From Parafrankia discariae (GTDB lineage: Bacteria; Actinomycetota; Actinomycetes; Frankiales; Frankiaceae), in NCBI RefSeq assembly GCF_000373365.1, contig NZ_KB891102.1:79632-143631 (forward strand): 64,000 nt of DNA, given 5' to 3'. The notes beneath the pieces were generated by a model that ran no database searches, was not told the origin of the DNA, and worked only from the letters and a program-made list of their open reading frames with translations. Position 1 is the stretch's first letter; the number at the start of each line of letters is the position of its first letter. This document shows, one piece after another, positions 29,618 through 30,212 of this stretch. Made by a program: the position numbers and the translations under genes.

Positions 29618-29623
29618 TAGATT
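29618..29623 (+). promoter_or_regulatory. Candidate -10 box for the repeat-protein gene
   Basis: TAGATT (TANNNT) lies in a locally AT-rich stretch, giving a transcript start near 29630 and a leader of about 73 bases. The -35 region is poor. The rest of 29380-29617 holds no gene that I can support. Confidence 0.4.
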
Positions 29624-29642
29624 CTTTGTTTGGGGAGAGCGC

Positions 29643-29685
29643 CGGGTGGCGAGACCCTTTTTCGGGGGCGGGTCAGCCGCACCCG
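29643..29685 (+). promoter_or_regulatory. Candidate structured RNA leader (two-stem hairpin)
   Basis: CGGGTG (29643-29648) pairs with CACCCG (29680-29685), then GCGA faces AGCCG as an internal loop. GACCC (29653-29657) next pairs with GGGTC (29670-29674), with TTTTTCGGGGGC as apical loop. The structure ends 17 bases before the start codon, so it could control ribosome access or mRNA stability. It does not match a riboswitch class I know. Confidence 0.45.
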
Positions 29686-29702
29686 AAACCGGTAATGGGG
29701 GA

Positions 29703-30071
29703 ATGATGGGAAAGTCCGCTCCACGCAGGATCCTCGCGCTGGTCGCCACCAGCGCCGCCGCCGTGACCCTGGGCCTGGGCCCGGGTGCCGGCGCCGCACA
29801 GGCCTTCAGCGACTGGGACGACAAGGGGTGCCACCACCAGCAGCACTGGGACGACAAGGACTGGAGGAACTCGAAGGACAAGGACTGCTGGAAGAAAGAC
29901 GAATGGAAGAAAGACGAGTGGCGGAAGGACGATTGGCGAAAGGACGACAAGTGGCAGAAGGACGAGTGGCGAAAGGACGACAAGTGGCGGAAGGATGATT
30001 GGCGAAAGGACAACAGGTGGAAGAAGGACGATCGGAAGAAGGATGACTGGGACTGGGACTGGGACTGGTGA
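29703..30071 (+). CDS. Secreted Trp/Lys/Asp-repeat protein
   Basis: The product has 122 residues. Residues 1-34 form a clear signal peptide (KSAPRR, hydrophobic core, cleavage after AAQA). The mature part of about 88 residues has 16 tryptophans, almost all in W-(K/R)-K-D-(D/E) units, and a C-terminal WDWDWDW. Two Cys and the HHQQH segment lie near the front. There is no recognised domain. Alternating Trp, Lys and Asp could give a charged, aromatic, self-associating or cell-wall/metal-binding polymer; this is inference. ATG 29703 follows GGGGGA; ATG 29706 is adjacent. It has its own leader hairpin and a terminator with a T-tract, and convergent DUF456 follows, so it is an independent single-gene unit. 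Confidence 0.75.
   Translation: MMGKSAPRRILALVATSAAAVTLGLGPGAGAAQAFSDWDDKGCHHQQHWDDKDWRNSKDKDCWKKDEWKKDEWRKDDWRKDDKWQKDEWRKDDKWRKDDWRKDNRWKKDDRKKDDWDWDWDW
29889..30068 (+). repeat. Tandem repeat coding W-(K/R)-K-D-(D/E) units
   Basis: Degenerate 15- to 18-base units (such as TGGCGAAAGGACGA) follow one another from 29889 to the end of the gene. They code for about a dozen Trp-basic-Lys-Asp-acidic blocks. Base composition is much lower in GC than in the neighbouring genes because of the AAG, AAA and GAC codons. Confidence 0.8.
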
Positions 30072-30131
30072 TCGGACGGTTCGTCGACTGAACCACTTAT
30101 CCGGTCACCTCCAGACGATCATCGGACGACA

Positions 30132-30212
30132 GCGCCGGGGAATAGAGATGACTCGCGACACGCCGCTTTCCGCCATCGCGAACCACAGTTCCCCGGCGCG
30201 CTTCCCTTTTTT
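30132..30212 (+). terminator. Long-loop terminator with T-tract
   Basis: GCGCCGGGGAA (30132-30142) pairs perfectly with TTCCCCGGCGC (30189-30199). Seven bases later comes TTTTTT (30207-30212). The 46-base loop is unusually large and may itself fold. It ends the repeat-protein transcript before the convergent DUF456 gene. Confidence 0.6.

Follow-up and report, generated by a model that had tools for sequence, protein, structure and literature searches.

The window analyzed here, a 64,000-nucleotide stretch from the genome (7.9 Mb in 194 contigs) of the nitrogen-fixing soil actinobacterium Parafrankia discariae, contains a real and conserved gene for a secreted Trp/Lys/Asp repeat protein (Table 1). 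Its product appears to belong to a secreted W-x-K-D family that is undescribed and confined to the Frankiaceae, the relatives of Frankia. Across this family, composition and local charge neutrality persist while repeat number and the sequence itself change. We favor, tentatively, a role in the hyphal surface or matrix as a sticky, disordered polyampholyte. The chemistry behind this reading is supported, and the function is inferred.

Table 1. Features of the repeat-protein locus, in window coordinates
Feature	Position	Strand	Support
Conserved block TAGATTCTTTGTTT, possible promoter or transcript start	29618..29631	+	nearly invariant in 6/6 orthologs
Conserved leader; possible helix of GTGGC..GACCC (29646-29657) with GGGTCAGCCGC (29670-29680)	29646..29680	+	ortholog alignment
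GGGGG Shine-Dalgarno-like sequence	29697..29701	+	sequence; invariant in orthologs
Secreted Trp/Lys/Asp repeat protein gene	29706..30071	+	121 aa; orthologs in 6/6 Parafrankia genomes
Sec signal peptide MGKSAPRRILALVATSAAAVTLGLGPGAGAAQA	29706..29804	+	purifying selection; N-terminus resembles those of two other genera and a sortase-linked family
Mature part, 88 aa: 16 W, 28 K/R, 30 D/E, no I/L/V/M	29805..30068	+	composition; no AlphaFold2 fold
W-x-K-D-x repeat array, 15/18/33/66-base periods	29889..30043	+	TRF
Alternating Asp-Trp C-terminal end, GACTGG x4	30045..30068	+	TRF; W-D-W-type end in most members, three genera
Intrinsic terminator, 11-bp stem and T6	30132..30212	+	fold z = -4.0; position-matched long stems in four other loci

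The reading frame opens with ATG 29706 and closes with a TGA stop at 30069-30071. A first-pass annotation, made from the letters alone, had noted this open frame, and it stands. The start at 29706 is better placed than an alternative ATG at 29703, which would give 122 residues, since the GGGGG sequence lies only 1 base from the earlier ATG and four of the six Parafrankia members have only the second one. The gene forms a single-gene unit, with a luciferase-like monooxygenase gene on one side and a convergent DUF456 gene on the other. Pfam domains found among the scanned neighbors were M20 peptidase, TM2, DUF2752, luciferase-like, DUF456 and ABC ATPase, and the side carrying DUF456 and the ABC ATPase is common to all six Parafrankia genomes. 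Neighborhoods are constant inside each genus and different from genus to genus, so no partner gene is suggested; a comparison across genera showed none common to several of them, in keeping with the earlier description of the gene as stand-alone. A RiPP precursor was considered and rejected, as there is no modification enzyme among the scanned neighbors and no partner gene common to genera.

The predicted Sec signal peptide is 33 residues long and ends in the cleavage motif AQA. It is under strong purifying selection, with dN/dS of 0.08-0.15 between the window and four Parafrankia orthologs; the value of 0.44 in the close pair G002/EUN1f reflects two changes only and so carries little weight. 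Mature parts of the Parafrankia orthologs give 0.29-0.46, a range probably inflated by repeat misalignment. The initial description of the export signal and of what follows it, about 88 residues with 16 Trp, W-(K/R)-K-D-(D/E) units and a WDWDWDW end, was borne out by the translation. Within the mature chain, Trp recurs mostly every 5-6 residues, with locally neutral K-D segments between. AlphaFold2, run on a five-sequence genus alignment that is shallow and repetitive, returned a mean pLDDT of 46, a pTM of 0.12 and no secondary structure. This outcome is consistent with a disordered mature chain, short of proof, and the exported protein is probably unfolded.

Each of the six Parafrankia genomes has an ortholog that agrees in signal peptide, composition and end (E = 3.8e-41 to 2e-7). 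Homologs were found in about 11 of 13 genomes of Frankia (g2) and in seven of eight from a third Frankiaceae genus (g7), which contains EuI1c; two of the genomes used are what we take to be F. alni ACN14a and F. casuarinae CcI3, and EuI1c is presumably a Pseudofrankia. None were found in four other Frankiaceae genera (g3-g6), and a profile search of 394 genomes of the class gave no convincing homolog in the rest of it. Thirteen of the 394, all outside the Frankiaceae, gave weak matches only; the four that were translated are low-complexity frames of other kinds and were judged not to be homologs. A search for the alternating W-D coding motif elsewhere in the Frankiaceae, g4 and g6 among them, led to seven extra places that were read, all of them unrelated frames. 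Plasmids gave no match. Pfam, NCBIfam and PDB hold no family or relative for the repeat protein, which agrees with the earlier remarks that no domain is recognized and that the family may be new. What its members share, within the Frankiaceae only, is a homologous signal peptide, a W/K/D mature part predicted to be disordered and a W-x-W end, the last being absent from four divergent Frankia members (G010, G011, G012 and G013). The best library match, TIGR02953 (NCBIfam, pentapeptide MXKDX repeat; E = 5e-4 for a Frankia member), also describes small proteins with a signal peptide and x-K-D-x pentapeptide repeats. Its repeats are anchored by Met, whereas those of the window family are anchored by Trp, with a Trp-rich end and no Met in the mature part. 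Three members score 12.7, 20 and 17.7 bits against a cut-off of 41 bits, and we therefore reject membership.

The chemistry of the mature part was compared in 15 members from three genera. Lengths range from 57 to 140 residues, Trp makes up 10-19% and Asp 21-36%, with some His and Cys, and 11 of the 15 contain no Ile, Leu, Val or Met at all. The fraction of charged residues is 0.41-0.70 and the net charge per residue lies between -0.09 and +0.03, Lys and Arg balancing Asp and Glu, so that the label zwitterionic is deserved. Most members in the three genera end in WDWDW or W-D/N/G-W, and repeat number varies among related genomes. In the W-x-K-D-x unit the search pattern fixed W, K and D and left positions 2 and 5 free, and it is at these positions that species differ: the window and ACN14a have WRKDD, P. 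soli and P. colletiae have WEKDR/K, and EuI1c and EI5c have WGKDG and WAKDG respectively. Charges at the two positions are anticorrelated (r = -0.72, per protein, 13 proteins). Positions 2 and 5 sum to neutral in 57% of 49 unique units versus 34% in shuffles (p = 0.0006, optimistic as are all such shuffle values, since the units arise from one another by duplication and the proteins share descent). All 15 members also have their charges more evenly mixed than shuffled versions of the same chain. Because the unit swaps charge between species yet stays neutral, the pattern points to selection on polymer chemistry, with the proviso that low complexity and repeat slippage alone can keep composition alike in related genes.

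A conserved export signal and conserved chemistry, combined with a free sequence, lead us to favor a chain that works through many weak contacts. In the model we propose, Sec export and signal peptide cleavage would release a disordered polyampholyte that acts by composition, not by fold. Trp residues would be the stickers, through pi-pi contacts and cation-pi contacts with Lys and Arg, while the well-mixed K/D spacers would keep the chain soluble and prevent its collapse. The Trp-dense W-D-W-D-W end would make the strongest contact. Through multivalent, weak contacts with itself, the wall or lipid components, such a chain may cover or cross-link the surface or matrix of the hyphae. Designed sticker-and-spacer condensate peptides, for example those of PMC9879991, likewise use aromatic stickers on a disordered chain as their working principle; those peptides are synthetic, and the likeness is one of principle, not of homology.

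The same composition could be read in other ways. The abundance of Asp, the alternating D-W end and the scattered His and Cys would suit a secreted metal-binding protein, with calcium, iron, lanthanides or similar cations bound by the Asp-rich repeats and Trp packed about them. We consider this improbable: Lys and Arg match the Asp and should make it bind cations less well, the sign at unit positions 2 and 5 differs between species, Pfam shows neither an EF-hand nor any other metal domain, and no metal gene is among the scanned neighbors. The data fit a sticky, disordered polymer better than they fit a metal site. The protein might instead hold water outside the cell as a hydrophilin-like polyampholyte protecting against desiccation, osmotic or envelope stress, and its high charged fraction, neutrality, predicted disorder and near lack of aliphatic residues would fit that role. 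Hydrophilin composition is the opposite of Trp-rich, however, and a mature part with 10-19% Trp makes such a protectant a poor prospect in our view.

We also asked how the gene is distributed relative to nitrogen fixation. A nifH match above its cut-off occurs in g1, g2, g6 and, within g7, in G034 alone; g3-g5 have none. The repeat protein occurs in seven nifH-negative genomes (g7, G027-G033) and was not found in the nifH-positive g6 (five of five genomes) or in G034. Its presence thus does not track nifH, which rules out a general symbiosis or nitrogen-fixation gene; a symbiosis role in particular lineages is possible. That independence also counts against an extracellular interaction factor, whether a decoy for cationic peptides of a host or competitor or an antimicrobial Trp/Lys precursor cut by proteases into short units. 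A constrained signal peptide before a fast-changing mature part does recall secreted arms-race peptides, and trypsin-like cleavage would free short W-containing peptides, but the net charge is near zero, unlike that of antimicrobial peptides, and no maturation or immunity genes were seen among the neighbors. We give this idea little credence. Least credible by far, and already largely refuted, is a non-functional low-complexity frame kept open by GC-rich sequence or an overlapping RNA element: high-GC genomes have many chance open frames, other reading frames at this locus are also open and the leader is conserved, but a signal peptide dN/dS of about 0.1, the Shine-Dalgarno-like sequence, the terminator and homologs with recoded repeats in three genera all argue otherwise. 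The first-pass annotation had itself allowed that a lack of any homolog or transcript would suggest a spurious frame; orthologs occur in all six sampled Parafrankia genomes, and homologs in two more genera.

A cell-surface setting for the sticky polyampholyte finds a parallel in a second family, here called type II, for which each searched genome of g1, g2 and g7 has a match. In the window genome its gene lies at G000:C1:214927-215439 (L076:2928-3443). Immediately upstream of it, and divergent from it, is a sortase gene (about L076:1683-2720, - strand; PF04203, E = 4e-24), and a tRNA gene comes after it. Over the signal peptide and mature start the two families align with an hhalign probability of 97.5% (E = 8e-12, 51 columns), a homology that leans largely on the signal peptide, a stretch in which the likeness may be one of composition. 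The type II mature part starts FDDKG, compared with F-S-DWDDKG in the window family, and carries KD-rich repeats with a recurrent DWF-x-D motif. The C-termini differ. Type II proteins end in LP(I/L)AG, an unusual form of sorting motif, then a hydrophobic stretch and RRR (SPLLPIAG in the window genome), the features of an LPXTG-like sortase substrate, whereas the window protein ends in WDWDWDW with no anchor, having no sorting motif, hydrophobic stretch or positive tail. Type II proteins are probably attached to the wall by sortase, and their sorting signal and adjoining sortase gene make a cell-surface role likely for the wider group. The stand-alone protein could be a soluble partner of these attached relatives. 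It is tempting to go further and imagine a dedicated extracellular, fold-free sticker-and-spacer set in the Frankiaceae, in which free Trp-rich chains and sortase-anchored KD-repeat partners phase-separate or gel into a hyphal surface layer, selected on charge balance and Trp spacing and not on sequence; this larger scheme we judge unlikely, if worth entertaining.

Upstream of the gene, the leader sequence is kept across Parafrankia orthologs, and we regard it as a putative conserved regulatory sequence. No match to a sigma-70 type promoter was found there, and the claim that the gene has its own -10 box is not established, though the nearly invariant block TAGATTCTTTGTTT is a possible promoter. 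Nor did the two-stem leader hairpin hold up: its stability does not exceed that of shuffled sequence (z = -0.8), and ortholog leaders fold differently from that of the window (z from -2.4 to +0.8). The possible helix in Table 1 is paired in 89% of alignment cells versus 42-55% when slid, with one compensatory change only, a count reached by 167 of 500 shuffles. By eye, the leaders of the two other genera appear unrelated, and Rfam gave nothing relevant for the locus, for other family leaders or for the related KD family. Downstream, the terminator with a T-tract was confirmed. Its 11-bp stem, GCGCCGGGGAA/TTCCCCGGCGC at 30132-30142/30189-30199, is followed by TTTTTT at 30207-30212; its fold score was equaled by none of 200 shuffles, and it is placed between convergent genes. 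Position-matched long stems occur in all four other loci checked; among these and the window, a T run beyond the stem is seen only in the window and P. soli.

This family is a clear example, from nature, of a secreted bacterial protein that keeps its composition and charge pattern and not its sequence. Should the protein prove to be a polymer of the surface or matrix, it would offer a clue to the way these slow, filamentous bacteria make their outer layer. For one of them, F. alni ACN14a, a transformation system has been reported (PMC6769113). The searchable text of the Frankia secretome, exoproteome, transcriptome and proteome literature holds no mention of such a protein. With Lys or Arg every few residues, standard proteomics would mostly miss it: by computation, only 8-48 residues per mature protein fall in tryptic peptides that are 7 or more residues long. 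A proteomics paper on F. alni cautions that the shotgun approach may miss small proteins and those of unusual lysine and arginine content (PMC8951365). Given this warning and the few usable tryptic peptides, a lack of proteomic detection says little against the protein's existence.

Other secreted proteins came to light during the searches. A third Frankiaceae group (L077, at G000:C111:14778 on, L085 and L094) has a signal peptide of similar kind and K-rich blocks, VVWYDGKDKKHH / VIWFDNKDKKHH, that recur, its gene being partly N in the window genome. Related short secreted proteins rich in W/R/Q/N/D (NWDRQNWDRQNW) and without K-D repeats are encoded in the CcI3-sized (L079:3105-3473) and ACN14a-sized (L081:3492-3872) genomes, and are perhaps another branch of the family. 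Farther away, in another family of the class, genome G378 encodes a secreted low-complexity protein rich in W/H/D/S/G (L089:3976-4389), a candidate for an independent Trp-rich exoprotein in a distant actinobacterium.
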